From Nanobdellota archaeon (GTDB lineage: Archaea > Nanobdellota > Nanobdellia > Pacearchaeales > GW2011-AR1): a stretch of 49,076 bases of DNA. Both the position numbers and the translations under genes were made by a program. The notes under the pieces are model-generated. The model saw only the letters and a program-made list of their open reading frames with translations. It had not been told where the DNA came from and did not search any database. This document shows positions 5,939 to 18,091 of the stretch, piece after piece. Every line of letters starts with the position of its first letter. Position 1 is the first letter of the stretch. The stretch lies in NCBI GenBank assembly GCA_013329055.1, contig DUKY01000023.1, forward strand, positions 1 through 49,076, written 5' to 3'.

Positions 5939-5976
5939 AGGCAACCTATAATTTAGCTTCAAATCAAAGGTTGCCT
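5939..5976. repeat. GGCAACC...GGTTGCC intergenic hairpin, copy 1
   Basis: First of 14 full copies of the array's recurrent hairpin: AAGGCAACC and GGTTGCCTT arms around an AT-rich inner stem and loop. It lies about 33 bases upstream of the 5390-5905 start codon on the minus strand. This is a more diverged copy than those after 14 kb. Confidence 0.75.
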
Positions 5977-5989
5977 TTGGCATTGATGG

Positions 5990-6364
5990 TTATTTCGCAG
6001 GTGTTACAGCATCGACTTTTTTGTGGCATTCCATAGCCAACCCGAAGTAAATCCATGCTTTTCCTTCTTTGTCTTTTCCCTCAGCAAGGCGGACTATACA
6101 TTTGGGCTTGAACGAGAATTTTTTTGTTTTTTCAACAATCTCTTCAATCATCTCGTTAATGGTTATGCTTTTGTCTTTGGCAAGCATTCGATAAGCCCCG
6201 ATCTTTCCGGTAATTTCAAGACCTTCTACGTCAAAGACTTGAACTTCCGTTTGTGGTGCCGGTACGATTTCTTCGCTTCTGGCCCTGTCGATAATCAGTG
6301 TAGCCAACATTGCCAACAGAACAATGATTAAGAAACCGATAAATCTCCAAAAATTTTTATTCAT
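5990..6364 (-). CDS. Membrane-anchored small extracytoplasmic protein, Cys-pair family
   Basis: A 124-residue paralogue of 3587-4024. Both begin KNFWRFIGFL and have a hydrophobic anchor followed by a charged external domain; here VEKTKKFSFKPKCIVRLAEG carries the first Cys and YFGLAMECHKK the second. The 50-base leaders of the two genes are also nearly the same, including GAGAGGACG before the ATG, so gene and leader were duplicated together. No known enzymatic motif. Confidence 0.74.
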   Translation of the reverse strand: MNKNFWRFIGFLIIVLLAMLATLIIDRARSEEIVPAPQTEVQVFDVEGLEITGKIGAYRMLAKDKSITINEMIEEIVEKTKKFSFKPKCIVRLAEGKDKEGKAWIYFGLAMECHKKVDAVTPAK

Positions 6365-6404
6365 AACGTCCTCTCTATTTTTATTGTTCTTTAATGATTA
6401 ATTA

Positions 6405-6437
6405 CTCAATACTAATTCTGCATTGGCATATCCTCCT
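6405..6437 (-). promoter_or_regulatory. Leader motif with three-codon ORF (MQN)
   Basis: Minus strand: GGAGGATATGCC then ATG CAG AAT TAG. It lies about 45 bases upstream of the 5990-6364 gene and matches the units near 4533, 15590, 16837 and 17487. Confidence 0.55.
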
Positions 6438-6462
6438 GCTGATTATTGCTTTTCTGCGGGAT

Positions 6463-6534
6463 TTAGAGATAATACCCTAAGATAATCAAGGACATTAGAA
6501 TCATAAGTACAGTCATGATTTTGAAAATATACAT
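6463..6534 (-). CDS. 23-residue membrane peptide
   Basis: A very short ORF encoding MYIFKIMTVLMILMSLIILG plus YYL, almost wholly hydrophobic and long enough to span a membrane once. A GGAGGAGGA Shine-Dalgarno run lies just upstream, which makes translation plausible. Its position between a leader motif and the PLP enzyme gene matches other peptide genes in the array (10682, 12295, 16660). Function unknown. Confidence 0.5.
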   Translation of the reverse strand: MYIFKIMTVLMILMSLIILGYYL

Positions 6535-6561
6535 CTTTTGTCCTCCTCCTCTTTTTGAATT

Positions 6562-7746
6562 TTATATAAAAGACAAACCTCCTCGTAAATCGTTGATGAT
6601 GTCCCGAGCATTCTCAAGACCTACCGAGAGTCTGACCATGTTCGGAGTAATTCCTGCACGCTTTAATTCTTCATCAGTATATGACGAGTGTGTCATCGAG
6701 GCTGGATGTTGAATGAGCGTGTCGCAGTCTCCAAGGCTTACGGCAATTGTGCAAAGATACAAATGATTGCAGAAATATGCGGCATCTTCTTTGGTTTTTC
6801 CTACTTCAAAACAGATTAAACCCCCTCCAAGTTTCATCTGTTTCTTGAAAATGTTAAACTTCGGGTTTGTTTTAAGAAGACCTGGGTAGCGGACATTTGA
6901 GACCTTTGGTTCACGAAGAAGCAATTGAGTAATAATTTTCGCATTCTTTGAATGTTGCTCCATTCGTATTGCCAAGGTTTTAAGACCACGTGAAATTAGC
7001 CAGGCATCGCTCGGAGATAAAATTCCTCCAAGATGGATTTGGGTTTCAAGCCGTAGCGATTTCAGGAGGTCTTTTTTTCCAACGATAAAACCAGCAATAA
7101 CATCGCCGTGACCGTTGAGATACTTTGTTCCGGAATGCATGACCAAATCTGCTCCCAGTTTCAACGGTTGCTGAATGTATGGTGAACAGAAGGTATTGTC
7201 TACACAAAGTAAGATGCCATGCCTTTTGCATACCTTAGATACAGCATGGATATCAATGAGTTTCATTGTCGGGTTCGCCGGAGTTTCCAGAAAAACCAGT
7301 CTGGTCTTTTCATCAATCAGGCTCTCAAGTTCACCCATTGAGTCACCAGTAAAAAACCTCGCACCGATATTATATTTTGGCAAGGTTTCTTTGGCAAGAC
7401 CCATTGTCCCACCATAAATAATGGTGTTATAGATAACATTATCTCCGGCTGAACATAAATGCAAGATTAAACTTGCTGTCGCTGCCATACCAGAACCAAA
7501 AGCCACGCAGTCTTCTCCACCTTCAAGCGATGCAACGATTTGCTCTAAGGCTCTGTTGGTAGGGTTAGATAACCGAGTATATATGTATCCTTCTTCCTCA
7601 CCAGCAAAGCATCTTCCTCCCTGTTCAGTTGAATCAAACCCGAAAGTGGAAGTCCTGTATATCGGTAATGTTACTGCATTATACTGGTTCTTAAATTGAT
7701 GTGCGTGAATCGCCCTTGTTTCAAAATCATAATTTTTCTTTACCAT
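6562..7746 (-). CDS. Methionine gamma-lyase / cystathionine gamma-synthase family PLP enzyme
   Basis: PLP enzyme of the Cys/Met metabolism family (394 residues). Visible motifs: YTRLSNPTNRALEQ, AFGSGMAATAS (PLP phosphate binding), ETPANPT, VDNTFCSPYIQ, the Schiff-base lysine in MHSGTKYLNGHGD and the SLGDCDTLIQHPASMTHS region. That last block is most like methionine gamma-lyase, which splits methionine to methanethiol, 2-oxobutyrate and ammonia. However, the active-site Cys after the YG dipeptide of classical lyases is Gly here (IIYGGTMG), so a cystathionine synthase/lyase role is possible. Strong GGGAGG site. No other methionine genes are nearby. Confidence 0.88.
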   Translation of the reverse strand: MVKKNYDFETRAIHAHQFKNQYNAVTLPIYRTSTFGFDSTEQGGRCFAGEEEGYIYTRLSNPTNRALEQIVASLEGGEDCVAFGSGMAATASLILHLCSAGDNVIYNTIIYGGTMGLAKETLPKYNIGARFFTGDSMGELESLIDEKTRLVFLETPANPTMKLIDIHAVSKVCKRHGILLCVDNTFCSPYIQQPLKLGADLVMHSGTKYLNGHGDVIAGFIVGKKDLLKSLRLETQIHLGGILSPSDAWLISRGLKTLAIRMEQHSKNAKIITQLLLREPKVSNVRYPGLLKTNPKFNIFKKQMKLGGGLICFEVGKTKEDAAYFCNHLYLCTIAVSLGDCDTLIQHPASMTHSSYTDEELKRAGITPNMVRLSVGLENARDIINDLRGGLSFI

Positions 7747-7775
7747 TTTTTCCTCCCTAAATAAATTTAATGATT

Positions 7776-7812
7776 AGGCAACCTTCAATCAAACAACAAT
7801 TAAAGGTTGTCT
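7776..7812. repeat. GGCAACC...GGTTGCC intergenic hairpin, copy 2
   Basis: AGGCAACCTTCAAT pairs with ATTAAAGGTTGTCT around a short loop. It lies about 30 bases upstream of the PLP enzyme start. Confidence 0.75.
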
Positions 7813-7820
7813 TCTTTTGG

Positions 7821-8153
7821 TTATTTACGAAATGATTCAAACCACATCTTGAATGTCTTGGCACGACTTTTGATCTTGTTCGAGTCAGTCATGTTCAGGT
7901 CTTCCAGAACTTTCTCAGTTTTCGGCGAAAGCTTGCAGGCCTCCTCGGAAAAGTCATACTGGCCTCCTTGCGACTTGTCCATGTCCATGATTTCCTTTGA
8001 CCTTTTGGCAGTTATAACTCTCCAGAGTGATTGAAGATGACCCCCGCAAAAACCAAGGTACAAGAACCAAATTCCTACTCCAATGATTCCTGCAATGATT
8101 ATCCAAGATAAAATTTTAACGAATAGAATTAATGCCATAGCCGAATTGCTCAT
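7821..8153 (-). CDS. Single-span membrane protein of unknown function
   Basis: A 110-residue protein with one long hydrophobic segment (about residues 7-33) followed by a Cys-Gly-Gly turn and a charged, helical cytoplasmic or external tail (RVITAKRSKEIMDMDKSQGG, later KVLEDLNMTDSNKIKSRAK). No recognised domain. GAGGAG precedes the start by about 7 bases. It follows 8192-8602 on the same strand and precedes a hairpin repeat. Confidence 0.68.
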   Translation of the reverse strand: MSNSAMALILFVKILSWIIIAGIIGVGIWFLYLGFCGGHLQSLWRVITAKRSKEIMDMDKSQGGQYDFSEEACKLSPKTEKVLEDLNMTDSNKIKSRAKTFKMWFESFRK

Positions 8154-8191
8154 GATGTTCTCCTCGAATTTTTGATTCTCAAATCAAATTG

Positions 8192-8602
8192 TTAATGCCT
8201 TGTAATGCAACACTGTCCCTTCCCTCTCGATGGGGGCTCATATTCTCTTGCAATGAAACTCCTGTAAATGAAATAAGGCCATGAGATATAAATAACCCCC
8301 ATGCTAATTCCAGAGGCAATAACATTCCAATCAAGAAGTAGATTGTAATAAATGCTTATGCCGAGTATAAATATAATCACTCTGTAAATCACTTTGCTGT
8401 TATAGTAAAGTACTACCTGCAACAGCAGTGGTATCCATAAATTCTGGATAATCTGCAGGGTAATGATTATCATCCCTACAAAAATCGTAGTTCTCTCACT
8501 AGAGAATGGTTGATAGAAATAGAGATAACAACCGGTGGTAAACGGAATAGACCAGATACCAGATGCAACTCCGACAGCTAATGATTTCAAAATATTTTTC
8601 AT
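8192..8602 (-). CDS. Small polytopic membrane protein
   Basis: A 136-residue protein with about four membrane segments (starting MKNILKSLAVGVASGIWSIP). I chose the ATG at 8602 because an AAGGAG site lies just upstream; a longer reading from 8665 would run into the neighbouring gene and lacks a ribosome site. No known family. Its start lies 12 bases after the stop of 8614-9039, so the two are co-transcribed. Confidence 0.65.
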   Translation of the reverse strand: MKNILKSLAVGVASGIWSIPFTTGCYLYFYQPFSSERTTIFVGMIIITLQIIQNLWIPLLLQVVLYYNSKVIYRVIIFILGISIYYNLLLDWNVIASGISMGVIYISWPYFIYRSFIAREYEPPSRGKGQCCITRH

Positions 8603-8613
8603 GATGTTTCTCC

Positions 8614-9039
8614 TTAGATAGGTTTTAACCATGGGAGTTTGGTATGAGTAACAGTTGATATCCAAATATATGGAATCTTGCTATCATAGAAAACTCCTTC
8701 ATTTAGAATCACAATGTATTTTCTTCCGTTGGCATTGGCAATTTTTTTTATGAATTCCAGTGCAATTTCTCGCGATCTTGCAAAGGATCGAATTGCAACA
8801 AAATCATTAGTTTTTTTTACATATTGAGTAAGTTCAGACATTTTCATGTCATCAAACTCGTCAATATGAAAGACAATAACTTCTTGTGCAGGTTTTACAA
8901 GCTTTTGTATAGAATCATCATTATAACCTCCAATTCTCTGTCCTGATTTATCATACATCGTGGCAACTTCCAGATTATCAGAATATGCCGCTCCTGAAAA
9001 CATCAACGCGATTAAAGTAATCACAACAAGATTTTTCAT
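8614..9039 (-). CDS. Small secreted protein of the array's alpha-beta family
   Basis: A 141-residue protein with a signal peptide (KNLVVITLIALMFSGAAYS). The mature part has a helix EIALEFIKKIANANGRKYI leading into VILNEGVFYDSKIPYIW, the same fold pattern as 5006-5371 and 5390-5905, but both family cysteines are replaced (Tyr and Thr). It is therefore a Cys-less member. AAAGGAG lies before the start. It lies 18 bases downstream of the SbmA-like gene. Confidence 0.72.
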   Translation of the reverse strand: MKNLVVITLIALMFSGAAYSDNLEVATMYDKSGQRIGGYNDDSIQKLVKPAQEVIVFHIDEFDDMKMSELTQYVKKTNDFVAIRSFARSREIALEFIKKIANANGRKYIVILNEGVFYDSKIPYIWISTVTHTKLPWLKPI

Positions 9040-9056
9040 AGTATTTCTCCTTTTGT

Positions 9057-10019
9057 TTAATACCCAATGTTATGCTCGAATTCCTTTAATCGTTTATGAA
9101 TTGAGCGAAGTTCAGTAATGGTAGTCCAGTTGCCGATGAAAATAGAAAATGATTCACGTACTTTGCTGAAAGCATTGGATACTTGAACCAGCATGCCCAA
9201 TGTAATAAGACCTGTAAACAATCCTGGTCCCATAATTAGGTAAGGAACAATGACCATCAGTTGCTCGAAGAAGTTAACCCATACGTCAAAGTAGCCGTAG
9301 TGGAGAAACAACCGGTTATAGTTGAATTTTAGTCCGGTGAATAGCTGGATTATGGTCTCTGTTTTTCCATAGTTTATCTTGTCGTCCTCGGCATATACCA
9401 ACTCTTTACGAAACGCCGCCTCCACCTTTTGGTTATTGTATTCAAGTCCAGGCAGTTTTATTCCGACAAACCAGGAAATAAGTAATCCCCCTATTGAAAC
9501 GACGAGGGCAACCCAGACAAGGCTTCCAGGAATATCTTTTATCCTCTCAATTTCAACTCCTTTACTGAGTCCCCAAAGAATCGGCAGAAAAGCCAAGAGA
9601 GTCATAATTGCTCGGATGACTTGTAAACCAAGACTCTCGACAATCCTCGCAAATCGATAGATGTCTTCTTGAATACGCTGACTTGAACCTTCCACTTCAC
9701 CTTCTACTTTCTGCCATCTGGCGACATATGAAAACGTCATCGCCTCTCGCCATTTAAAAGAGTAGATGCGGGTAAAATATGACGTTACAGTAGCAATTAA
9801 AACATAAGGAAAAGCAATTTTTGCAAACTGTAACATCGAAGCCCAAAACTCTTCTACTTTGTGTTCAGTAGCCTTTTGGAGAATATTGTAAAAGGCACCG
9901 TACCATTCGTTGAGTAAAACAGAAAGCTCAACTTGAACAAGTAGTGCAATGAATAAGAACAAGCAACCGCCATAAGCCCAGAACATCCATTTTCTTGATG
10001 CAAAAAACGATTTTAACAT
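9057..10019 (-). CDS. SbmA/BacA-like peptide transporter
   Basis: SbmA and BacA are inner-membrane proteins that use the proton gradient to import peptides such as microcins and Pro-rich or NCR antimicrobial peptides. The 320-residue protein keeps the family core: LLNEWYGAFYNILQ, FKWREAMTFSYVARW, QRIQEDIYRFARIVE, IMTLLAFLPILW, VGIKLPGLEYNNQKVEAAFR, KELVYAEDD and the C-terminal WTTITELRSIHKRLKEFEH. It is about 80 residues shorter at the N-terminus than enterobacterial SbmA, as in some BacA-like forms. GGGAGG precedes the start. Such genes are bacterial; its presence supports transfer or a non-archaeal origin for this region. Confidence 0.88.
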   Translation of the reverse strand: MLKSFFASRKWMFWAYGGCLFLFIALLVQVELSVLLNEWYGAFYNILQKATEHKVEEFWASMLQFAKIAFPYVLIATVTSYFTRIYSFKWREAMTFSYVARWQKVEGEVEGSSQRIQEDIYRFARIVESLGLQVIRAIMTLLAFLPILWGLSKGVEIERIKDIPGSLVWVALVVSIGGLLISWFVGIKLPGLEYNNQKVEAAFRKELVYAEDDKINYGKTETIIQLFTGLKFNYNRLFLHYGYFDVWVNFFEQLMVIVPYLIMGPGLFTGLITLGMLVQVSNAFSKVRESFSIFIGNWTTITELRSIHKRLKEFEHNIGY

Positions 10020-10140
10020 AATTACCTCCCTGCAAAATTGAACAAAGTTTATTGATTAACTCAAGTTGTTTTAATCAATTAAAAATTAAACCTTCTAAAT
10101 TATTCGCTGATTAAAACCTCTTGAGGTTTAATCATTTTTT

Positions 10141-10178
10141 AAGCCAGATAACATCGCAACTGACTATTATCTGGCTTA
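10141..10178. repeat. AAGCCAGATAA hairpin
   Basis: AAGCCAGATAA (10141-10151) pairs with TTATCTGGCTT (10168-10178), a perfect 11-bp stem between the 56-residue protein gene and the SbmA-like gene. A smaller AAACCTC/GAGGTTT palindrome lies just to the left. Probably an RNA 3' structure of the upstream minus-strand gene. Confidence 0.6.
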
Positions 10179-10192
10179 AAGTTAAGGTTTAG

Positions 10193-10363
10193 TTACCTCG
10201 GCAAATAGGAGTTTTCATCACTTGCCGTCGGAATGGTCTGTTCTTGTTGTGTTTCAGGTGCTTGCATTAATTGCAGGATATTTGTTGCAATCACAAGAGC
10301 ACCGAGAATGATAATGATAACAAAACTAAATCTTACCCATTTTTGATTTGTGCCGTTTTTCAT
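10193..10363 (-). CDS. 56-residue single-span membrane protein
   Basis: Encodes a peptide with a basic start (KNGTNQKWVRF), one membrane span (FSFVIIIILGALVIATNILQ) and a Gln/Glu-rich external tail ending EQTIPTASDENSYLPR. GAGGAAAG precedes the ATG. The EQTIPTA tail, together with 24 bases of identical DNA, recurs at 10682-10792, showing a duplicated and decayed paralogue. Function unknown. Confidence 0.6.
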   Translation of the reverse strand: MKNGTNQKWVRFSFVIIIILGALVIATNILQLMQAPETQQEQTIPTASDENSYLPR

Positions 10364-10432
10364 ACTTTCCTCATTTGTTTTTGTTGTTGTTAAGGCAACC
10401 CTTAATCCTTCTTGCCGTTGGTGGTGGGTAGG

Positions 10433-10558
10433 CTAAATGCCGTGATTGTAGTAGGAAATTTCCTGATTCAAGCTAGGTTCTTCAATGGCAGGATTTTCAA
10501 TAACAATATTTCCCCAGATAATGATTGTTGCAAATACTAATGCGAAAATTTTGGACAT
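10433..10558 (-). CDS. 41-residue secreted or anchored peptide
   Basis: Starts MSKIFALVFATIIIWGN, a short hydrophobic signal or anchor, followed by a polar tail with NPAIEEPSLNQE. GAGGTAAAAG lies before the ATG. A half copy of the hairpin repeat (left arm only, near 10392) lies just beyond its stop. Too short to classify. Confidence 0.5.
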   Translation of the reverse strand: MSKIFALVFATIIIWGNIVIENPAIEEPSLNQEISYYNHGI

Positions 10559-10681
10559 ACTTTTACCTCATTATAGTTTTAGTGTTTTGGAATTTTGTTG
10601 ATTAATCACAATCTTATTTATTCGATAAAATCACCTCCTTTAACTTCTAATTTAGATTCATCTTTGGGCATTTCTGCTGGT

Positions 10682-10792
10682 TTATCCCGGTATTTGATAT
10701 TCTGTTGCCGTCGGAATGGTCTGTTCTTATATTATTGATATAATAACACAGAAGATGATAATAAAGATAAGAATATCATTTTCGTCATACAT
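10682..10792 (-). pseudogene. Broken paralogue of the 56-residue membrane protein
   Basis: An ORF starting MYDENDILIFIIIFCVIISI, with a GGAG site upstream, ends at TAA (10727-10729) after 21 codons. The same frame continues after that TAA as EQTIPTATEYQIPG, matching the tail of 10193-10363, to a second stop at 10682-10684. The simplest reading is a nonsense mutation between membrane span and tail. The 21-residue peptide may still be made; stop readthrough is the less likely alternative. Confidence 0.55.
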
Positions 10793-10824
10793 ATTATTTT
10801 CTCCTTCATTTTAATGATTGTTTA

Positions 10825-10863
10825 AAGGCAACCTTTAATCATCTTGCAATCAAAAGTTGCCCT
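10825..10863. repeat. GGCAACC...GTTGCC intergenic hairpin, copy 3
   Basis: AAAGGCAACCTTTAAT pairs with AATCAAAAGTTGCCCTT. It lies about 33 bases upstream of the 10792 start codon. Confidence 0.7.
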
Positions 10864-10881
10864 TGGTTTTGGCGATTAACT

Positions 10882-11121
10882 TTATTTAATCTTTTTCAAT
10901 CCGGCACTATTTTTATAGGAGAGCAAAATAGTGCCTAGAATAGTTATGGGCAAAAACATCCATGTCAGTAAGGGGGTAATGATCGCGAGCACAACATCCA
11001 TTGTCGCTTCTGCAAGGTTTTTTGGATCATTTTTTTTAACGCAGGTATCCCAGATTTTAATAGGATTTAGAAATTCATTCAAATTCTTTTTAAAAGATTC
11101 TTTATCAAAAGAGTATTTCAT
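10882..11121 (-). CDS. 79-residue membrane protein
   Basis: A charged helical N-terminal half (KESFKKNLNEFLNPIKIW, KKNDPKNLAEATMDVV) followed by one or two hydrophobic spans (VLAIITPLLTWMFLPITILG, then TILLSYKNS). AAGGAG before the start. Unknown function. Lies between hairpin copies 3 and 4. Confidence 0.62.
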   Translation of the reverse strand: MKYSFDKESFKKNLNEFLNPIKIWDTCVKKNDPKNLAEATMDVVLAIITPLLTWMFLPITILGTILLSYKNSAGLKKIK

Positions 11122-11153
11122 GATGTTTCTCCTTTTAATGAAATAATTGTTTT

Positions 11154-11192
11154 AAAGACAACCCTCAATTAACCTTCAACCAAAGGTTGCCT
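11154..11192. repeat. GGCAACC-type intergenic hairpin, copy 4
   Basis: AAAGACAACCCTCAATTAAC and CAACCAAAGGTTGCCTT arms; the left arm has one change (GACAACC). It lies 33 bases upstream of the 11121 start. Confidence 0.7.
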
Positions 11193-11224
11193 TCTTTTTA
11201 GTTAGCGAGTTGCCGGCGAGGATG

Positions 11225-11527
11225 CTATTCCTTCAGCGGAAGATCCATATCAGTATGAAGTTTATGATACATTTCTGGTGTAACCTCGTAAATCATCACC
11301 TTTCCCTGATATATTACCTCGATGCGATATGATGCCAGATAGAGGTTTTTTTGCATACCGACAATCTTTCCCCCAGGAACTTTTTGCAATTCTTCTATCG
11401 TTAAGCTTTCTCCAAAAGGGAAACCTTCTGATGGTCCAAAAAAATATGGGTATGCGGTTAAAGTAGCTATGCCGATAATAGCAATAACAATCAACAGCTC
11501 AATAAGAGTAAAACCTTTTTTATTCAT
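11225..11527 (-). CDS. Type IV pilin-like N-terminus fused to a small beta domain
   Basis: A 100-residue protein starting MNKKGFTLIELLIVIAIIGI, the classic type IV prepilin cleavage site (after Gly, before Phe-Thr-Leu-Ile-Glu) and hydrophobic spine. Instead of a normal pilin head it carries a domain IEELQKVPGGKIVGMQKNLY followed by a VTPEMYHKL segment, matching 16081-16338, which has no pilin part. So the pilin leader has been joined to a domain that also occurs alone. Its start overlaps the stop of 11527-11721 as TAATG, indicating coupled translation. A PilD-type peptidase would be needed; none is in the window. Confidence 0.72.
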   Translation of the reverse strand: MNKKGFTLIELLIVIAIIGIATLTAYPYFFGPSEGFPFGESLTIEELQKVPGGKIVGMQKNLYLASYRIEVIYQGKVMIYEVTPEMYHKLHTDMDLPLKE

Positions 11528-11721
11528 TATGTTTCCTCCGTTGGAATGATTTTAACATTCTTGCGAATGTCAGAAGAAAGTGCATTAAACTCCTCCATGG
11601 TACAGAGCGAAGGAGTTTGGCACCATTTGTCAAGATAAATCTTTCCATCTTTTTCATAAACGATTGTTTGGCGATGGGTTCCAAATAACCTCCTCATGAA
11701 TTTCTCTTGTTTTTTATCCAT
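11527..11721 (-). CDS. 64-residue basic protein
   Basis: Small soluble protein (KKQEKFMRRLFGTHRQTIVY, then DGKIYLDKWCQTPSLCTMEE) with two cysteines and no signal peptide. AAAGGTG precedes the start. It overlaps the pilin-like gene by one base (TAATG), so the two are translationally coupled. Function unknown. Confidence 0.6.
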   Translation of the reverse strand: MDKKQEKFMRRLFGTHRQTIVYEKDGKIYLDKWCQTPSLCTMEEFNALSSDIRKNVKIIPTEET

Positions 11722-11737
11722 GGTTTCACCTTTTGCA

Positions 11738-12281: not shown

Positions 12282-12294
12282 AGCTCTTCTCCGG

Positions 12295-12396
12295 TTAATT
12301 TTTTTTGAGAATCTCTTTCCAACTCATTGCCAGAAAAAACAACACCAAGGCAAGTGGACCATACTTAAACAGCAATAGGAAAATAAATTCAAGCAT
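12295..12396 (-). CDS. 33-residue membrane peptide
   Basis: MLEFIFLLLFKYGPLALVLF then FLAMSWKEILKKN: one membrane span with a short basic tail. GGGAGG precedes the ATG by about 7 bases. It lies 13 bases upstream of the start of 12102-12281, probably one transcript. Function unknown. Confidence 0.5.
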   Translation of the reverse strand: MLEFIFLLLFKYGPLALVLFFLAMSWKEILKKN

Positions 12397-12407
12397 GTTC
12401 TGCCTCC

Positions 12408-12797
12408 CTAATCAATTTGAATAAAATTTTTGTCATGGGTAAGAGGATCATAATCTAAAAAGATATACCTCTGCATGAGTCCTTCTTCTTGCCGGCGAAG
12501 TTGACGTTCTTCCTTTGCAGTAAAACATCCTTGCCATGCTATTGCCATATGAGCTGTTGTACTCTCAAAAGAATTTTGAACTTTCAACATGGCAGAGTAC
12601 AGTCGAAGATCTTTTTCCGGTGTAAACTTTTTAGGATATTTTGTGTTTACTGGAAAAGGAAATGCCGGATTCGATGGATAATCTGGTTCGTCATCATCAT
12701 TGAACCAATCATCTCCCCAACCGTCATCGTCGCAGAAGTTTGCAGGTTCATCCATTGCAAGGTCTTCCTGAGGACAAATATCTTCTTGCTGGTACAT
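12408..12797 (-). CDS. Acidic 129-residue protein
   Basis: The N-terminal third is very acidic and aromatic (DDDGWGDDWFNDDDEPDY), followed by a Pro-rich stretch (NPAFPFPVNTKYPKK) and a helical C-terminal half (KDLRLYSAMLKVQNSFEST, KEERQLRRQEEGLMQRY). No signal peptide. The asymmetric acid/basic makeup suggests a protein- or DNA-mimic-like binding role, but this is speculation. GAGGAGG before the ATG. Confidence 0.62.
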   Translation of the reverse strand: MYQQEDICPQEDLAMDEPANFCDDDGWGDDWFNDDDEPDYPSNPAFPFPVNTKYPKKFTPEKDLRLYSAMLKVQNSFESTTAHMAIAWQGCFTAKEERQLRRQEEGLMQRYIFLDYDPLTHDKNFIQID

Positions 12798-12829
12798 ACT
12801 TTTACCTCCTCATTGATTGATGTTATAGA

Positions 12830-12967
12830 TTACTTTTTCTTTCTTTGTTTTTCCCTTACTTCTATAAACTTCACGATGCTCAAGCTGATAACCAATGCGA
12901 GGATTATGCTCGCAGGAATTAACGCCCCAATCAGCAAGTTCTGGTTCTCAAGAAATTCTTGAAACAT
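12830..12967 (-). CDS. 45-residue membrane peptide
   Basis: An amphipathic start (MFQEFLENQN), one membrane span (LLIGALIPASIILALVISL) and a strongly basic tail (EVREKQRKKK). GGGAGGAAC lies upstream. It lies directly downstream of the 12980-13465 membrane protein gene (13-base gap). Unknown function. Confidence 0.5.
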   Translation of the reverse strand: MFQEFLENQNLLIGALIPASIILALVISLSIVKFIEVREKQRKKK

Positions 12968-12979
12968 AATAGTTCCTCC

Positions 12980-13465
12980 CTAAATTGAAATTGATAAAAA
13001 AATTAGGAATAAGATTGTACTTGTTCCTAAAATAATTTGAGTCAGCAAGTTTTGTTTGTTCTGAACTTCCTCCTCAATTTCCTCCATAATCTTTACTCGG
13101 CCGTATTTTGGGGATTTTCCCTCTAAATTTTTTATTAGCCCAGAACTCACAATTATCCCTTGAATTCTGGAATAGATGAACAACAAATTATCTGTCATTA
13201 CTGTAAGAATAATAAGATAATCTCTTGTTTCCTCTTTGTAAATTTCCGGGCTTGAATGGATAATCCACGAAAACATAATGCAGGTTATAAAAAGGGGTGA
13301 GCTACTCCAGATTAATTGCTTTATTCCTCCTGAAATGTTTGGAGTATCTTTAATAATCAAAAATCCGATAATTATTCCCAAAAGAATAATCTCTCGATAT
13401 CCTGGGATTACACACAAAAAGGTATAACCTCCAAATCCTGCAAGCAATAGGTTTATTTTTTTCAT
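12980..13465 (-). CDS. Polytopic membrane protein, 161 residues
   Basis: About four membrane spans (residues 5-22, 25-38, 51-72, 140-160) with a charged middle region KNLEGKSPKYGRVKIMEEIE. Not recognised. AAGGAGG before the ATG. A ten-base gap separates it from 13476-13991, another membrane protein, so they probably form a pair in one transcript. Confidence 0.65.
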   Translation of the reverse strand: MKKINLLLAGFGGYTFLCVIPGYREIILLGIIIGFLIIKDTPNISGGIKQLIWSSSPLFITCIMFSWIIHSSPEIYKEETRDYLIILTVMTDNLLFIYSRIQGIIVSSGLIKNLEGKSPKYGRVKIMEEIEEEVQNKQNLLTQIILGTSTILFLIFLSISI

Positions 13466-13475
13466 AGCATCCTCC

Positions 13476-13991
13476 TTATTGTTTAACTTTGTACATCAAA
13501 AGCACCATCCCTATTACAACAAGAATAATCCCCAGAAAATTGATTGGAGTAAAAACCATCTTGTTAAAGTATCTCGGGAGTGCAATTGCTAACATTGGAG
13601 CAAGAATATATGCCCATGCTCCATAAGAATTCATAATTGTTAATGGTAAGGCCAAATTAGGACAGGTTGAATCGGTCAGCACTTGAGAATAAAGAACATT
13701 CGCAAGTGTACCAACGAAAAATCCTAAAAATATCACGATGAGTAGCGGTATTAAAGGATGATATAAATCTTCTATTTGGAAATTATTAAACTTCCCAAAA
13801 GAAAAAATAACCATCCCTAAGATTGCTCCAACATTCCAAGCAAAGATAAGAGATTCAGACTTCATTCCCCAACCTTTTCCAAAAAAACTGAACAAGAATG
13901 GAAAAGGAAGAAAACATATTAGGACGATAAATGATTTTGTTATCCATCCCAGATTCATGAGACTGTTCATGGCATTAATAAAGTAATTCAT
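13476..13991 (-). CDS. Five-span membrane protein, EamA-like half transporter (tentative)
   Basis: A 171-residue protein with about five membrane spans; the C-terminal pattern LTIMNSYGAWAYILAPMLAI followed by a short loop and INFLGIILVVIGMVLLMY resembles the last spans of EamA/DMT-type transporters, where single-domain forms dimerise. Similarity is by pattern only. AAGGAGG precedes the start. Confidence 0.6.
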   Translation of the reverse strand: MNYFINAMNSLMNLGWITKSFIVLICFLPFPFLFSFFGKGWGMKSESLIFAWNVGAILGMVIFSFGKFNNFQIEDLYHPLIPLLIVIFLGFFVGTLANVLYSQVLTDSTCPNLALPLTIMNSYGAWAYILAPMLAIALPRYFNKMVFTPINFLGIILVVIGMVLLMYKVKQ

Positions 13992-14057
13992 AATGTTCCT
14001 CCTTAATTTAGAGATTAGAATTTTTTGTTCATTAATAAAAAAATAATTTTATTTTAT

Positions 14058-14190
14058 GTGATATCCTCGAAGGCCGAAAGTTTACACTTACATTAATCCC
14101 GAAGGTAAAGATAAAAGCTGTAAGTGTGGGCTTGAGTTTAGAGATATCACCGCTCCGCAATTTGAGGAAGCTTAAAAGAAACCAGCGGGT
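14058..14190 (+). pseudogene. Remnant homologous to the gene at 48872, with nested palindromes
   Basis: On the plus strand, opposite to all array genes, codons 14062-14175 read YPRRPKVYTYINPEGKDKSC, KCGLEFRDITAPQFEEA, stop, preceded directly by TGA and with no start. The gene at 48872 ends in the same sequence (KCGLEFKDTTEPQFEEA), about 80 percent alike at DNA level. The segment also contains GTGATATC/GATATCAC and CACTTACA/TGTAAGTG arms that could pair; both vary in a compensatory way in the other copy. It occupies a slot between an array hairpin (14221-14262) and the 13476-13991 gene. Likely a truncated 3' end of a mobile or duplicated gene, possibly a structured RNA. Confidence 0.6.
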
Positions 14191-14220
14191 GTCTTTTATT
14201 TTTTTAATAATATTCAAAAA

Positions 14221-14262
14221 AAAAGGCAACCTTCAATTAAACAAACAACCAAAGGTTGCCTT
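14221..14262. repeat. GGCAACC...GGTTGCC intergenic hairpin, copy 6
   Basis: AAAGGCAACCTTCAATT pairs with CCAAAGGTTGCCTTT. Unlike other copies, no minus-strand gene starts just downstream; the plus-strand remnant at 14058-14190 occupies that slot. Confidence 0.75.
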
Positions 14263-14290
14263 TCTTAATCATGTGGTGCCGATGACGTTA

Positions 14291-14551
14291 TCAGCTTTTT
14301 TTGTCGCCGTTATCGTAGGTGTTGGGCAGGTCACCGAATGGATTGATAATAATAATAATTGCTTGGCGTTCGGGTTTGAGCTCAGGATGTTTCTTGATGA
14401 GTGCCGTGATCATTTCTTCTTCGGTGGCATAGCTGACAGATTCAATATCCTGAGCAAATTGTCTGATGTTTCGACAATTTTTGCATTGGCACATTGTTTT
14501 TGAAATTTCAATAATTCTCTGGTAAATAGGCCATCCTTCAAATTTTTTCAT
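14291..14551 (-). CDS. FEGWP-family small Cys protein
   Basis: An 86-residue soluble protein beginning MKKFEGWPIYQRIIEISKTM, with a compact cysteine motif CQCKNC near residues 21-26, then QFAQDIES, YATEEEMITALIKKHPEL and a hydrophobic IIIIINPFGDL. It is a clear paralogue of the next gene (14650-14979). The CxCxxC motif suggests metal or iron-sulfur binding. GAGGTG before the ATG. Function unknown. Confidence 0.7.
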   Translation of the reverse strand: MKKFEGWPIYQRIIEISKTMCQCKNCRNIRQFAQDIESVSYATEEEMITALIKKHPELKPERQAIIIIINPFGDLPNTYDNGDKKS

Positions 14552-14581
14552 ATTTCACCTCATTATTCTGTTTGTGGTTTT

Positions 14582-14619
14582 AGGCAACCTTCAATTAAAC
14601 AACAATCAAAGGTTGCCCC
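14582..14619. repeat. GGCAACC...GGTTGCC intergenic hairpin, copy 7
   Basis: AGGCAACCTTCAATT pairs with AATCAAAGGTTGCCC. It lies 30 bases upstream of the 14551 start; on the plus strand a pyrimidine run follows. Confidence 0.78.
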
Positions 14620-14649
14620 TTTCTTCTTCAGGCATTGGTGCCGATGGCG

Positions 14650-14979
14650 TTATCGGTTTTTGTTGTCAAACTTCTTGGGGTTATCAAGCCGATCGAACAG
14701 CTGTCGCAAATCTTCTCTCTGAACCGTATTGTTTGTGAGGTCGTCGTCGAGGTTTATTTCCATAATCGTTAATTTGATTAATTGGAACTGGTCGGGATAC
14801 TTCTCTATCAGTGCCATGGTCATTTCCTGCTCAGTAGCATAAGTACTGACGCCGGATTCAAGATCCTGGAAAAATTGCCTTATGTTCTGGCACTTTTGGC
14901 ATTGGCAACATCCATTTGCAATCGTTTTCATTTCTTTGTAAACAGGCCATCCTTCAAATTTCTTTTCCAACTTTTCCAT
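14650..14979 (-). CDS. FEGWP-family small Cys protein, longer paralogue
   Basis: A 109-residue paralogue of 14291-14551: KKFEGWPVYKEMKTIANGCC, CQCQKCQNIRQFFQDLES and YATEQEMTMALIEKYPD align without gaps for about 55 residues, then the tails diverge (here basic, ending NPKKFDNKNR). The cysteine cluster is CCQCQKC. GAGGTG precedes the start. Same hairpin upstream as its paralogue, so the unit of duplication was probably gene plus hairpin. Confidence 0.7.
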   Translation of the reverse strand: MEKLEKKFEGWPVYKEMKTIANGCCQCQKCQNIRQFFQDLESGVSTYATEQEMTMALIEKYPDQFQLIKLTIMEINLDDDLTNNTVQREDLRQLFDRLDNPKKFDNKNR

Positions 14980-15010
14980 GTTTTCACCTCGTTATTCTGT
15001 TTGTGGTTTT

Positions 15011-15050
15011 AGGCAACCTTTAATTAAACAAACAACCAAAGGTTGCCCCT
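15011..15050. repeat. GGCAACC...GGTTGCC intergenic hairpin, copy 8
   Basis: AGGCAACCTTTAATTAA pairs with CCAAAGGTTGCCC, followed on the plus strand by CCTTTTTC. It lies 31 bases upstream of the 14979 start. Confidence 0.78.
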
Positions 15051-15073
15051 TTTTCTTATTCAGGCATCCGGTG

Positions 15074-15247
15074 TTATTTGTCCTTCTTCTCGTTATCTTG
15101 ACCGAAATTTTCCTTGCCTGTTTCATCGGTCTGAGGTTTTTTATTACGATTGCAGTTGCAATTACATTTACTACAATCTCCCAATTTATTTTCTTTTGAC
15201 TTTCGCCAATGAAGAGAAAAGAAATCCCTTCGTGACATCTTCATCAT
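15074..15247 (-). CDS. 57-residue Cys/Asn-rich basic protein
   Basis: Starts MMKMSRRDFFSLHWRKSKEN and contains CSKCNCNCNRNKK, then a polar tail ending DNEKKDK. The SRRDFF start looks like a twin-arginine motif but no hydrophobic segment follows, so Tat export is not supported. Four cysteines within eight residues suggest metal binding. I chose the ATG at 15247 because AAAGGAG lies immediately upstream. Unknown function. Confidence 0.6.
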   Translation of the reverse strand: MMKMSRRDFFSLHWRKSKENKLGDCSKCNCNCNRNKKPQTDETGKENFGQDNEKKDK

Positions 15248-15267
15248 GTTCTCCTTTCTGCGTTTCA

Positions 15268-15306
15268 AAGGCAACCCTCAATTAAACAACAATTAAAGGT
15301 TGCCCC
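15268..15306. repeat. GGCAACC...GGTTGCC intergenic hairpin, copy 9
   Basis: AAAGGCAACCCTCAATTAA pairs with AATTAAAGGTTGCCC, then CCCTTTTTT on the plus strand. It lies 21 bases upstream of the 15247 start. Confidence 0.8.
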
Positions 15307-15352
15307 CTTTTTTATTTAGGTGCTAGTGCAAACTGCACATTTAATTGCTGAA

Positions 15353-15514
15353 TCAACCTTTCTTTTTGGAGCCACCGGCATCAGCAGGTTTCTGCGTGTT
15401 CTTATCCGCCTGATCTTGATCCTTGTCATCATGACATCCACCGCAACATCCATCATCGTCTTCCTTGTCATGACATCCGCCACATCCCTTGTTTTTGTTC
15501 TCGTTCTCGTTCAT
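15353..15514 (-). CDS. CGGCH-repeat metal-binding-like protein
   Basis: A 53-residue, extremely hydrophilic protein: MNENENKNKGCGGCHDKEDD, then DGCCGGCHDDKDQDQADKNT and a basic end. Two CGGCH motifs with Asp-rich surroundings look like a small metal-binding peptide. A near-copy with the same leader lies at 17234-17410. No signal peptide. The start has GAGGCAATGCC before it. Function unknown; metal storage or delivery is inference. Confidence 0.65.
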   Translation of the reverse strand: MNENENKNKGCGGCHDKEDDDGCCGGCHDDKDQDQADKNTQKPADAGGSKKKG

Positions 15515-15579
15515 GGCATTGCCTCATAAAGAATTTTTTTGATTGCACTCACTATTGGCACAATCGATTCTACTTCTTA

Positions 15580-15612
15580 CAACTTTTAATCCTGCATTGG
15601 CGTATCCTCCTC
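15580..15612 (-). promoter_or_regulatory. Leader motif with three-codon ORF (MQD)
   Basis: Minus strand: GGAGGATACGCC, ATG CAG GAT TAA, then AAGTTG and a conserved stretch with AATCGATTGTGCCAATAGTG running to the CGGCH gene start. The same leader occurs before the paralogue at 17234-17410. Confidence 0.6.
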
Positions 15613-15651
15613 TATTTGATTGCTAACTATTTGGTGCCGGCAGTGGCGATG

Positions 15652-15999
15652 TTATTCAGATAAAGGGCATCCGCTGAGATCTGAGAGTTTTTGCAAAGAA
15701 CGTTTTCCCCCATATCGTTGACCATCCTTTGAAATCCATGTAGGATAAGCTTGAATCTTTGCATCATTGCAAGCTTTTGGCGATTGCTCGCATTCTGTAA
15801 AGTCAATATACTGGAATGATTCGCCGAACAACTCTTTCTGGCTGAGACAGTGCTGGCACCAGTCGGCACCATACATTTTGAAGCCTTTGTCAGTCAAGCA
15901 CTTGGCGAACTCGTCAAGGTTTGAATCTTGGGCAGTAACAGTACCTGCGATGAACAGGGCAAAGAAAATTCCCGTGACTATTATTGTGATTCTTTTCAT
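15652..15999 (-). CDS. Secreted thioredoxin-fold protein (VKOR-associated type)
   Basis: A 115-residue protein with a signal peptide (ITIIVTGIFFALFIAGTVTA) and a compact thioredoxin-like domain: FAKCLTDKGFKMYGADWCQH and C, giving a WCQHC redox motif, then YIDFTEC, ACNDAKIQAYPTW (with the cis-Pro loop AYPTW) and a closing GGKRSLQKLSDLSGC. This matches the small thioredoxin domain often fused to VKOR, which oxidises or reduces disulfides outside the membrane. No VKOR is nearby. It could act on the Cys-containing secreted proteins of the array. GAGGAAAA before the ATG. Confidence 0.85.
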   Translation of the reverse strand: MKRITIIVTGIFFALFIAGTVTAQDSNLDEFAKCLTDKGFKMYGADWCQHCLSQKELFGESFQYIDFTECEQSPKACNDAKIQAYPTWISKDGQRYGGKRSLQKLSDLSGCPLSE

Positions 16000-16032
16000 C
16001 GTGTTTTCCTCATTTTGTGGTTTGTTTTTGTT

Positions 16033-16072
16033 AAAGGCAACCCTTAATTAAACCTCAATCAAAGGTTGCCCC
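16033..16072. repeat. GGCAACC...GGTTGCC intergenic hairpin, copy 10
   Basis: AAAGGCAACCCTTAATTAA pairs with AATCAAAGGTTGCCC, then a T6 run on the plus strand. It lies 34 bases upstream of the 15999 start. Confidence 0.8.
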
Positions 16073-16080
16073 TTTTTTAC

Positions 16081-16338
16081 TTAGGCGTTAGTGCCGGTGA
16101 AGGATGGAGGAAGTGGAAGATCCATGCCAACGCTGATATTCATGCCAATGCTGAGCTGATAATATGTTTCTGGGGTAACTGTGCAAGTTCGCACTTTATG
16201 CTGAAACAGAATATCAATGAGGTATGAATGATGCCTGAGATTTTTTTCCATCCCGACAATTCTTCCCCCTTTTGTTACATTTTTTAAGTTTTCTATTGTT
16301 AATTTATCATTCATGATAAAGAGTTCTGCGTATTCCAT
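16081..16338 (-). CDS. Small beta-domain protein, stand-alone form of the pilin-fused domain
   Basis: An 85-residue protein without signal peptide: LTIENLKNVTKGGRIVGMEK, then HSYLIDILFQHKV, VTPETYYQLSIGMN and DLPLPP. The core aligns with residues 42-100 of the pilin-like protein at 11225 and, more loosely, with the secreted proteins at 16907 and 17547 (shared Y.QL..GM.LPL ending). The pattern suggests a five-strand OB-like barrel, by inference. A GAGG site lies 9 bases before the ATG. Confidence 0.65.
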   Translation of the reverse strand: MEYAELFIMNDKLTIENLKNVTKGGRIVGMEKNLRHHSYLIDILFQHKVRTCTVTPETYYQLSIGMNISVGMDLPLPPSFTGTNA

Positions 16339-16370
16339 TTTTGTAACCTCTTATTATGCTTTGTAGTTTT

Positions 16371-16410
16371 AGGCAACCCCTAATTAAATATCAATTAAAG
16401 GTTGCCCCTT
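16371..16410. repeat. GGCAACC...GGTTGCC intergenic hairpin, copy 11
   Basis: AGGCAACCCCTAATTAA pairs with AATTAAAGGTTGCCC, then CCTTTTT on the plus strand. It lies 33 bases upstream of the 16338 start. Confidence 0.8.
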
Positions 16411-16444
16411 TTTATCTAGGCGTTAGTGCCGGCAGAATGGTTAT

Positions 16445-16564
16445 TTACGATGTTCTGGGTGGCCTCGTCATGATCCATTCGATATCTTTGTCAATAGCAG
16501 AAAACATCATTTTCGCTGAGGCAATCTTTAAAATACAAATTGCCAGAAAACATATTCCTAACAT
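16445..16564 (-). CDS. 39-residue secreted or anchored peptide
   Basis: MLGICFLAICILKIASAKMM followed by a polar tail ending TRPPRTS. The start resembles a short signal peptide with an ASA cleavage site. GGAG lies 8 bases before the ATG. It sits between hairpin copies 11 and 12. Function unknown. Confidence 0.5.
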   Translation of the reverse strand: MLGICFLAICILKIASAKMMFSAIDKDIEWIMTRPPRTS

Positions 16565-16587
16565 AATGTAACTCCAATTTTTTGTTA

Positions 16588-16626
16588 AAGGCAACCTTCA
16601 ATTAAATATCAATTAAGGGTTGCCCC
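16588..16626. repeat. GGCAACC...GGTTGCC intergenic hairpin, copy 12
   Basis: AAAGGCAACCTTCAATTAA pairs with AATTAAGGGTTGCCC, then a T6 run on the plus strand. It lies 24 bases upstream of the 16564 start. Confidence 0.8.
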
Positions 16627-16659
16627 TTTTTTACTCAGGCTTTGGTGCCGGGCGACAGG

Positions 16660-16779
16660 TTACTTAAATATAGTACGGCCGAAAGCCTTGCCAATCAATT
16701 GTACCGCTCCCATTGCCAAAGGAAGAATGATTTGGAAGAAAGGGAGTGCGATAATTCCTACCACGATTGTTGTTGCCAT
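16660..16779 (-). CDS. 39-residue membrane peptide
   Basis: MATTIVVGIIALPFFQIILP then LAMGAVQLIGKAFGRTIFK: a hydrophobic hairpin or single span with a basic amphipathic end, a form typical of membrane-active peptides. GAGGCAC before the ATG, as in the genes at 16907 and 17547. Activity is speculation. Confidence 0.55.
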   Translation of the reverse strand: MATTIVVGIIALPFFQIILPLAMGAVQLIGKAFGRTIFK

Positions 16780-16836
16780 AATTGTGCCTCATTTGTTTTT
16801 TGTTGTTTGTTTACTTATCTCTTCATCTCTTACTGG

Positions 16837-16866
16837 ATTTTAATTCTGCATTGGTGTATTCTCCTC
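16837..16866 (-). promoter_or_regulatory. Leader motif with three-codon ORF (MQN)
   Basis: Minus strand: GGAGGAGAATACACC, ATG CAG AAT TAA, AA. It lies about 60 bases upstream of the 16660-16779 peptide gene. Confidence 0.55.
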
Positions 16867-16906
16867 CATTTGTGTGTTAACTATTTGGTGCAGGCCAGGG
16901 CGATGG

Positions 16907-17128
16907 TTATTGCTGAAGTGGGAAAGTCATGCCGACGGCAAGTTGGGAATAGACTTTCTGGCTAGTGCGGAATGTGATGTTGTTCACCGTGATGTAGCGT
17001 CCGAAGAAGGTTTCATATTTTCCCGTGACCTTCCCGTTCTGAATGGCTTCCAACCGTTCCTGTGCTTTCGAAGTCAAGCAGAAAAATCCAAATGCCAAAC
17101 CAGTAACTGCGATAAATGCTAATGTCAT
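16907..17128 (-). CDS. Small secreted beta-domain protein, paralogue A
   Basis: A 73-residue protein: signal peptide TLAFIAVTGLAFGFFCLTSK with a Cys near its end, then ERLEAIQNGKVTGKYETFFG and a strand-rich region ending YSQLAVGMTFPLQQ. I prefer the ATG at 17128 because the GAGG ribosome site overlaps the ATG four codons upstream. It is about 75 percent identical to 17547-17768, a tandem duplicate. The FCLTSKAQ region might be a lipobox-like site, but it does not fit the consensus well. Confidence 0.7.
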   Translation of the reverse strand: MTLAFIAVTGLAFGFFCLTSKAQERLEAIQNGKVTGKYETFFGRYITVNNITFRTSQKVYSQLAVGMTFPLQQ

Positions 17129-17157
17129 TTTGTGCCTCATTTGTTCTTTTTGTTGTT

Positions 17158-17196
17158 AAGGCAACCTTCAATTAAACCTCAATTAAAGGTTGCCCT
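17158..17196. repeat. GGCAACC...GGTTGCC intergenic hairpin, copy 13
   Basis: AAGGCAACCTTCAATTAA pairs with AATTAAAGGTTGCCC. It lies 29 bases upstream of the 17128 start. The paralogue at 17547-17768 lacks this hairpin upstream and has the other leader type instead. Confidence 0.8.
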
Positions 17197-17233
17197 TTTT
17201 ACTTGCTAGTGCAAACTTGCACGTTGAAGATTA

Positions 17234-17410
17234 TCAGCTTCTCTTTTTGGAGCCGTCGGCAGGTTTCTGCGGTTTCTGCGTGTTCTTATCCGCCTGATCT
17301 TGATCCTTGTCATGATCATGGCACCCTCCGCAACATCCATCATCATCGTGACCATGTTTTTGATCCTTGTCATGACATCCGCCACATCCCTTGTTTTTGT
17401 TCTCGTTCAT
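17234..17410 (-). CDS. CGGCH-repeat metal-binding-like protein, paralogue
   Basis: A 58-residue paralogue of 15353-15514: MNENKNKGCGGCHDKDQKHG, then HDDDGCCGGCHDHDKDQDQA. It has gained His residues between the two CGGCH motifs and a QKP duplication in the tail (TQKPQKPADG). Its leader is nearly the same as that of the first copy over about 100 bases. Function unknown; metal binding inferred from Cys/His/Asp content. Confidence 0.65.
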   Translation of the reverse strand: MNENKNKGCGGCHDKDQKHGHDDDGCCGGCHDHDKDQDQADKNTQKPQKPADGSKKRS

Positions 17411-17479
17411 GGCATTCCCTCATAAAGGATTTTTTTGATTGCACTCACTATTGGCACAATCGATTGGTACTGCATGGTA

Positions 17480-17510
17480 CAACTTTTAATTCTGCATTGG
17501 CGTATCCTCC
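17480..17510 (-). promoter_or_regulatory. Leader motif with three-codon ORF (MQN)
   Basis: Minus strand: GGAGGATACGCC, ATG CAG AAT TAA, AAGTTG, matching the unit before the other CGGCH gene. Confidence 0.6.
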
Positions 17511-17546
17511 CTCATTGGTTAACTATTTGGTGCCGACAGGGCGAGG

Positions 17547-17768
17547 TTATTGCTGAAGCGGAAGAGTCATGCCGATGCTGAGTTGAGCGTATACATCATG
17601 GCTAACATGGAATGTGATGTCGTTTACAGTAATGTATTTCCCGAATGAGTTTTCATACTTGCCGGTGACTGTTCCGTTCTGAATGGCTTCCAACCGTTCC
17701 TGTGCTTTCGAAGTCAAGCAGAAAAAGCCGAAGAATAAGCCGGTTACTGCGATAAATGCTAATGTCAT
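17547..17768 (-). CDS. Small secreted beta-domain protein, paralogue B
   Basis: A 73-residue tandem paralogue of 16907-17128, with TLAFIAVTGLFFGFFCLTSK as signal and the same ERLEAIQNG start of the mature part, ending YAQLSIGMTLPLQQ. The ribosome site GAGG overlaps an upstream ATG as in paralogue A. The two three-gene blocks (this protein plus a CGGCH protein nearby) suggest segmental duplication inside the array. Confidence 0.7.
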   Translation of the reverse strand: MTLAFIAVTGLFFGFFCLTSKAQERLEAIQNGTVTGKYENSFGKYITVNDITFHVSHDVYAQLSIGMTLPLQQ

Positions 17769-17829
17769 TTTGTGCCTCATTTGAAGAATGATTTTGATTA
17801 CGTTTTTGCTATTGCTAAACGCGATTTTT

Positions 17830-17870
17830 TTAAAACATTTTAATTGCCCATTGGTGTATCTCCTTTTTTG
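17830..17870 (-). promoter_or_regulatory. Leader motif with three-codon ORF (MGN)
   Basis: Minus strand: GGAGATACACC, A, ATG GGC AAT TAA AAT. A variant of the MQN leader, about 65 bases upstream of 17547-17768. Confidence 0.5.
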
Positions 17871-17886
17871 CGGTTGTTGTTTGTCA

Positions 17887-18027
17887 TCATTGATCTTGAG
17901 CCGGCTGAGTGACCTGTATAGGTACTTGCTGAATCTCGGGCTCATGACCAAAATAGATGTTAATTGCAATGATAAAAGGTATGAGCGTTAATCCGATAAG
18001 AACTCCCATAATAATTTTGTAATTCAT
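17887..18027 (-). CDS. 46-residue membrane-anchored peptide
   Basis: MNYKIIMGVLIGLTLIPFII then AINIYFGHEPEIQ and a Gln/Pro/Val tail (VPIQVTQPAQDQ). I chose the ATG at 18027 since AGGAGG lies right upstream. One membrane span plus an extended external tail, like 10193-10363. Unknown function. Confidence 0.55.
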   Translation of the reverse strand: MNYKIIMGVLIGLTLIPFIIAINIYFGHEPEIQQVPIQVTQPAQDQ

Positions 18028-18053
18028 GTTCCTCCTATGTCTTATTTTGTTAA

Positions 18054-18091
18054 TGCAACCTTCAATTAAACTCAACTAAAGGTTGCCCCTT
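18054..18091. repeat. GGCAACC...GGTTGCC intergenic hairpin, copy 14
   Basis: ATGCAACCTTCAATTAA pairs with AACTAAAGGTTGCCC, then a T6 run on the plus strand. The rightmost copy; none occurs beyond it toward 49 kb in this form. Confidence 0.78.

Follow-up and report, generated by a model that had tools for sequence, protein, structure and literature searches.

The palindromes known as repetitive extragenic palindromic sequences (REP) and bacterial interspersed mosaic elements (BIME) can stabilise upstream mRNA, and clusters of attC sites lacking integron-integrases (CALINs) are by definition without IntI. Integron cassette arrays and CALINs are known in archaeal metagenome-assembled genomes (MAGs), those of Nanoarchaeota included (PMC9668308). 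In the cip-cel operon of Clostridium cellulolyticum, the stem-loops of selective RNA processing and stabilization (SRPS) have energies of -14.1 and -24.3 kcal/mol, lie in intergenic segments of 92-116 bp and mostly lack U-runs (PMC4423207). Here we describe a family of GGCAACC/GGTTGCC hairpins in contig DUKY01000023.1 of a Nanobdellota archaeon (assembly GCA_013329055.1). The window analysed is the entire contig (C2; 49,076 bases), part of a 1.19-Mb genome in 26 contigs. We propose, with a probability of roughly 0.55, that one gene-strand RNA hairpin, present in 14 copies, divides a long polycistronic transcript of the array into its cistrons and marks or stabilises RNA ends.

Within 12 kb (5940-18087), the family has 14 complete copies plus a half copy, and all 14 hairpins lie in a single orientation, on the minus strand, between genes of one array (Table 1). 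An initial annotation of the window had counted the same fourteen; the half copy is added here. The window contains 26 instances of the heptamer GGCAACC where 1.8 would be expected; none of 100 shuffles gave as many. The covariance model and genome-wide search that had been suggested at the outset were carried out with a model built from the 14 copies, run on the genome itself and on 370 other genomes of the phylum. In its own genome, the model recovered exactly the known 14 minus-strand loci and zero others. The check for the same element in related genomes, also suggested at the outset, came out negative: among the 370 others there was one marginal match (E = 0.004) and nothing else, and other modules are present there instead. 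On inspection, the marginal match proved to be a single hairpin flanked by two unrelated genes and was judged to have arisen by chance. Exact pattern scans yielded only five single chance matches among 84,980 species genomes and only one among IMG/VR viral contigs, all in unrelated contexts. A search of the window against Rfam returned only a tRNA at gathering score, with chance-level matches over the hairpins at relaxed thresholds. As no real match was found elsewhere in the genome, phylum, species or viral scans, the hairpin family is private to this DNA stretch. A dispersed repeat resembling REP or a miniature inverted-repeat transposable element, with no role in expression, would likewise be a multi-copy intergenic palindrome. 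However, REP and BIME elements are dispersed and occur in both orientations, whereas all copies here share one orientation within one 12-kb array, with none elsewhere in 1.19 Mb, and their stem is maintained strand-specifically, as described below; we regard this explanation as highly improbable.

A stem that acted as double-stranded DNA, or as RNA from either strand, would accumulate G·U drift equally on both strands. On the gene strand, the stem cells (17 pairs × 14 copies) comprise 174 Watson-Crick pairs, 56 G·U, 2 A·C and 6 others. Counted as distinct wobble states, 12 are G·U versus 2 A·C (one-sided binomial p = 0.0065). In all 14 copies, the predicted folding energy is -14 to -22 kcal/mol for the gene-strand RNA versus -5 to -15 kcal/mol for its complement, and A·C mismatches weaken the plus-strand stem in every copy. 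The asymmetry between G·U and A·C therefore indicates that the structure is preserved on the gene strand, probably as RNA. This result argues against a plus-strand terminator and against a DNA operator, a candidate that we rejected because the wobble pairing is strand-specific. The variation had initially been described as partly compensatory, which holds for one pair of 15, in which both sides have changed; almost all the rest is one-sided Watson-Crick/G·U change on the gene strand, and a rough count of changes on a tree is still mostly of this kind. Because two-sided changes are nearly absent, the strand evidence is wobble asymmetry and not classical covariation.

The position of the hairpins within the gaps is also regular. 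In 13 copies, 18-37 nucleotides (nt; mean 29, sd 6) separate the hairpin from the start codon, and all 14 lie 9-48 nt (sd 11) beyond the preceding stop codon. The close spacing first reported (17-34 bases before a start) is thus retained, slightly widened, for 13 copies and does not apply to copy 6 (14225), whose next start is 233 nt away. The leader that follows the hairpin is A/C-rich, contains a Shine-Dalgarno (SD) site and is conserved in sequence between unrelated genes; this conservation reaches upstream of the hairpin as well. Array gaps of 40 nt or more number 26; TATA matches are absent from all of them, and only two contain T≥5 on the gene strand, one of these runs being the T9 after copy 6; sigma-70-like sites in the array are at shuffle (chance) level.

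These signals bear on whether the hairpin is a repeated transcription terminator, partial or bidirectional. Copy 6, with which the upstream block ends, carries a 20-bp extended stem with its T9 and speaks for such a role, as does the plus-strand C/T-run noticed initially, which is real, mainly in copies 14583-18054, with CCCTTTTTT on that strand in several copies. However, only 1-3 T follow the gene-strand stem in 13 of the 14 copies, so that the weak gene-strand T-run first described is accurate for all but copy 6, and archaeal intrinsic termination relies on T-runs, not hairpins. With at most three T and no promoter signal downstream of the hairpins, terminating copies would silence the genes beyond. 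On the plus strand, which has the T-run, the stem is broken by A·C mismatches. A bidirectional terminator, one of three roles offered initially, is set aside as a general function on these grounds, and a repeated terminator of any kind appears rather improbable.

A second hairpin family in the array, CCAAACGAGCA...TGCTCGTTTGG, shows the same split, with a U-tract at the block-end copy and none at the internal copy. The U-tract is confined to block-end copies in both families. On the simplest reading, an RNA end is protected or defined by the hairpin, and the T-run, where present, terminates. Of the roles suggested initially, a site for RNA stability or processing agrees best with the gene-strand stem, the gaps without promoter or terminator, and U-tracts only at block ends.

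Starting from the observed copies, their strand and position, the absence of signals and the structured modules that recur in related arrays, we infer co-transcription, cleavage and protection as follows. The approximately 40-gene, one-strand array would be transcribed as one long polycistronic RNA. This transcript would be cut near the hairpin, or decay from the 3' side would be halted there, or both, and the upstream cistron would thereby be left with a protected 3' end. The A/C-rich leader after the hairpin would remain accessible to ribosomes. Where a T-run follows, as at copy 6 and at the unrelated array-end hairpin, the hairpin would mark a true transcript end. If this is correct, repeated copies of an RNA hairpin partition an operon of an archaeon. 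Such mRNA punctuation has been described mainly in bacteria, and it would here be found in minimal symbiont-type archaea.

Several observations weigh against RNA separators. The stem is kept mainly by one-sided G·U changes, and the copies share ancestry, which leaves few independent events; a shuffled-pairing control for covariation was not exceeded by the 14 copies. The wobble test cannot separate a role as RNA from one as single-stranded DNA of the same strand. Many array gaps contain no such hairpin, and the half copy at 10394 has lost one arm. Finally, spacing is tighter to the start (sd 6) than to the stop (sd 11), which would also suit the strongest rival, a 5'-leader element of the downstream gene that shields a processed mRNA 5' end, insulates the ribosome-binding site or binds a co-regulator. 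The tight start spacing and the leader conserved between unrelated genes favour this alternative, and gene-strand RNA structure is equally compatible with it. It is nevertheless fairly unlikely, as copy 6 has no gene within 230 nt yet carries T9, the array-end hairpin, too, is located at a 3' end, and sequence conservation is not confined to the downstream side of the hairpin.

Table 1. Coordinates of the hairpins, the array and associated features in the window
Feature	Position	Strand	Remarks
Hairpin copy 1	5940-5975	-	34 nt upstream of ATG, gene 5390-5905
Hairpin copy 2	7777-7811	-	30 nt upstream of ATG, gene 6562-7746 (methionine gamma-lyase-like)
Half copy	10394-10406	-	gene-strand 3' arm and leader only; precedes 10193-10363
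Hairpin copy 3	10827-10861	-	precedes short open reading frame (ORF) with start near 10790
Hairpin copy 4	11157-11191	-	precedes 10882-11121
Hairpin copy 5	11740-11774	-	precedes 11527-11721
Hairpin copy 6	14225-14260	-	T9 after stem on gene strand; sole terminator-like copy
Hairpin copy 7	14583-14617	-	precedes 14291-14551
Hairpin copy 8	15012-15047	-	precedes 14650-14979
Hairpin copy 9	15270-15304	-	precedes 15074-15244
Hairpin copy 10	16036-16070	-	precedes 15652-15999 (thioredoxin-like)
Hairpin copy 11	16372-16406	-	precedes 16081-16338
Hairpin copy 12	16590-16624	-	precedes short gene ~16445-16564
Hairpin copy 13	17160-17194	-	precedes 16907-17140
Hairpin copy 14	18054-18087	-	precedes 17887-18027
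Array-end hairpin CCAAACGAGCA...TGCTCGTTTGG	~2870-2940	-	followed by T10
Second copy of CCAAACGAGCA...TGCTCGTTTGG hairpin	3528-3586	-	internal, without T-run; precedes 2969-3514
Accessory array	2969-19072	-	~40 co-oriented small genes, all SD-led; G+C at third codon positions 0.38 versus 0.17 in host genes
Candidate array promoter	19073-19291	-	AT-rich, TATA-like stretches; putative
HerA/VirB4/CedD-like ATPase	19292-21439	-	directly upstream of array
147-aa coiled-coil-like protein	24139-24582	-	conserved partner gene upstream of ATPase in relatives examined

The array differs in composition from its surroundings, its G+C content reaching 48% versus 25-32% in the host part of the contig. Host genes are mostly leaderless, their start codons immediately following a TATA-like box; within operons, some SD sites occur. 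They include archaeal genes for a GatE-type amidotransferase, an exosome RNase PH protein, proteasome alpha and leucyl- and cysteinyl-tRNA synthetases, and the contig is chromosomal, from a DPANN-type archaeon. Several array genes look bacterial. The array encodes an SbmA/BacA-like transporter that is absent from the 370 other phylum genomes and ~44% identical to proteobacterial proteins, together with a methionine gamma-lyase and a protein with a prepilin-type N-terminus. A hydrophobic N-terminus is present in about half of the array proteins, compared with 16% for the host genes of the window. A structured repeat at 14060-14193 (plus strand) interrupts the array. It is dispersed over at least 10 contigs of the genome, tandem in places, and recurs at 48945-49068 (plus strand); both copies in the window form a common long hairpin, in which one pair has changed on both sides, and the repeat has no Rfam match at gathering score. 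A chimeric assembly is unlikely, given this genome-wide repeat inside the array and the analogous arrays after the same ATPase in relatives. Megablast of the island against phage and plasmid records gave no match.

A separate intergenic motif in the array, type B (GGAGGATACGCCAATGCAGAATTAAAA; 17484-17510, minus strand), has further copies at 4068, 4529, 6410, 15584 and 16838 and a variant near 17850. It consists of a strong SD site, a spacer ATACRCC and ATG CAG AAT TAA, a possible M-Q-N-stop ORF with the variants TTG CAA AAT TAA, ATG CAG GAT TAA and ATG GGC AAT TAA. It lies 50-100 nt ahead of the following gene, for which a separate SD site is present, and could be a minimal leader ORF. Near the end of the contig, an intron-containing tRNA gene (48487-48601, minus strand) is accompanied by tandem 97-nt partial duplicates (48588-48781).

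Counting the present genome, 52 of the 371 phylum genomes encode homologues of the ATPase. The protein matches CedD (NCBIfam) weakly, with E = 2.7e-14, far below the family cut-off, and solved HerA structures weakly as well; CedD belongs to the DNA-import system of Sulfolobales, as a HerA/VirB4-like component (PMC11868833). No relatives of the ATPase were found in IMG/VR, and phage and plasmid records gave only weak matches of 24-28% identity over half the protein. The operon of coiled-coil protein and ATPase (19292-24582 in the window) is conserved across DPANN genera, with hypervariable small-gene arrays behind it. In many relatives, a run of small genes on the same strand follows the ATPase (fetched loci L060-L090), and in one of them (G330) a gatB/gatE-type gene lies downstream of the array, as in the window. 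The contents of these arrays are nearly unrelated: of 395 proteins, 24 are homologous to a protein of another array, and most are orphans, among which a hydrophobic N-terminus is frequent. An origin from a provirus was considered and rejected: 79 proteins of the relatives' arrays contained no structural viral families and gave one weak spanin-like match.

Gaps in arrays of at least eight genes were compared with control gaps from the same genomes, with a simple ORF caller, mononucleotide shuffles and loci cut at 20 kb. Repeated modules occur in 59 of 223 array gaps versus 12 of 208 control gaps (p = 4e-9), and in 40 of 197 array gaps when this window is left out (p = 1e-5). A fold z-score below -2 was obtained for 44% of array gaps versus 16% of control gaps. 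The module sequences are genome-specific and differ between genomes. In G273 (L062), a module has five pairs with two-sided changes and 18 G·U to 0 A·C, and structure prediction on the gene strand favours G·U; in G362 (L060), one module family has six two-sided pairs, with structure again predicted on the gene strand. The repeat family of G322 (L063) has no clear hairpin, so that not every array module is a hairpin, and several relatives' arrays showed no repeated module at the sensitivity used. The G322 array genes, unlike those of other arrays, often have a TTTCTAAA motif in place of an SD site. In the G362 locus, sense tRNA-like genes stand between array genes (7278-7351, 10134-10204 and 10866-10936, minus strand), one of which falls inside a duplication of ~470 nt; these tRNA-like genes could act as transcript punctuation.

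Because integrons are known in archaea, Nanoarchaeota too (PMC9668308), attC sites were sought in the array. The hairpins could be DNA-level cassette boundaries at which array genes are captured or shuffled by recombination, as at attC in integrons. In keeping with this, one flanking module is common to unrelated foreign genes, the paralogues 16907 and 17547 have different upstream modules, and the arrays of relatives, with their genome-specific modules, differ almost wholly in genes. However, a search for complementary R'' (RYYYAAC) and R' (GTTRRRY) boxes 35-145 nt apart returned 0 pairs on either array strand (shuffles, 0.7-0.9), and there is no integrase nearby. The sole match to PF00589 (tyrosine recombinase) in the genome is short and partial, lies on another contig (C15) and is interrupted by a stop, which is weak evidence alone in a MAG that is 85% complete and given that CALINs have no IntI. 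IntI recombines the bottom strand of attC, whereas the structure here is kept on the gene (top) strand, with 56 G·U versus 2 A·C. The initial suggestion of a cassette boundary thus fails in the integron sense, and such a role is quite improbable; what survives of it is the setting, a gene array with genome-specific repeated modules that does resemble cassette arrays.

These comparisons allow a broader, tentative proposal, in which the coiled-coil protein and the HerA/CedD-like translocase, followed by a hypervariable array of foreign small-protein genes, might form a conserved platform in DPANN chromosomes for integrase-independent, cassette-type gene capture and expression. Its array proteins may possibly be largely secreted or membrane proteins, each genome having its own structured separator families, of which the window hairpins would be one set. 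The wider pattern of the same ATPase, differing foreign gene arrays and genome-specific separators hints at how such archaea collect and express bacterial genes.

Set beside the systems introduced above, the hairpins share with REP and BIME elements the form of repeated extragenic palindromes, and differ in being confined to one array in a single orientation and not dispersed through the genome. They share a stable G+C-based stem with intrinsic terminators, a class that copy 6 with its T9 fits fully; it alone has a U-tract directly after the transcribed-strand stem, whereas the other 13 copies have none on the gene strand. Integrons and CALINs offer tandem short co-oriented ORFs, foreign genes and structured sites that are alike within an array and unlike between arrays. 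By contrast, this array has no attC boxes and no intact IntI, its structure is on the gene strand, and it is linked to a HerA-like ATPase. In SRPS, individual stem-loops act in a co-transcribed Clostridium operon, whereas the hairpins of this archaeal array are 14 homologous copies between unrelated genes. A stable stem and co-oriented, promoterless gaps are observed here, and the genes may be co-transcribed. The likeness to SRPS lies in stable stem-loops within the gaps of one operon, here a presumed one, mostly without U-runs and without internal promoters, at similar gap lengths and energies (PMC4423207).

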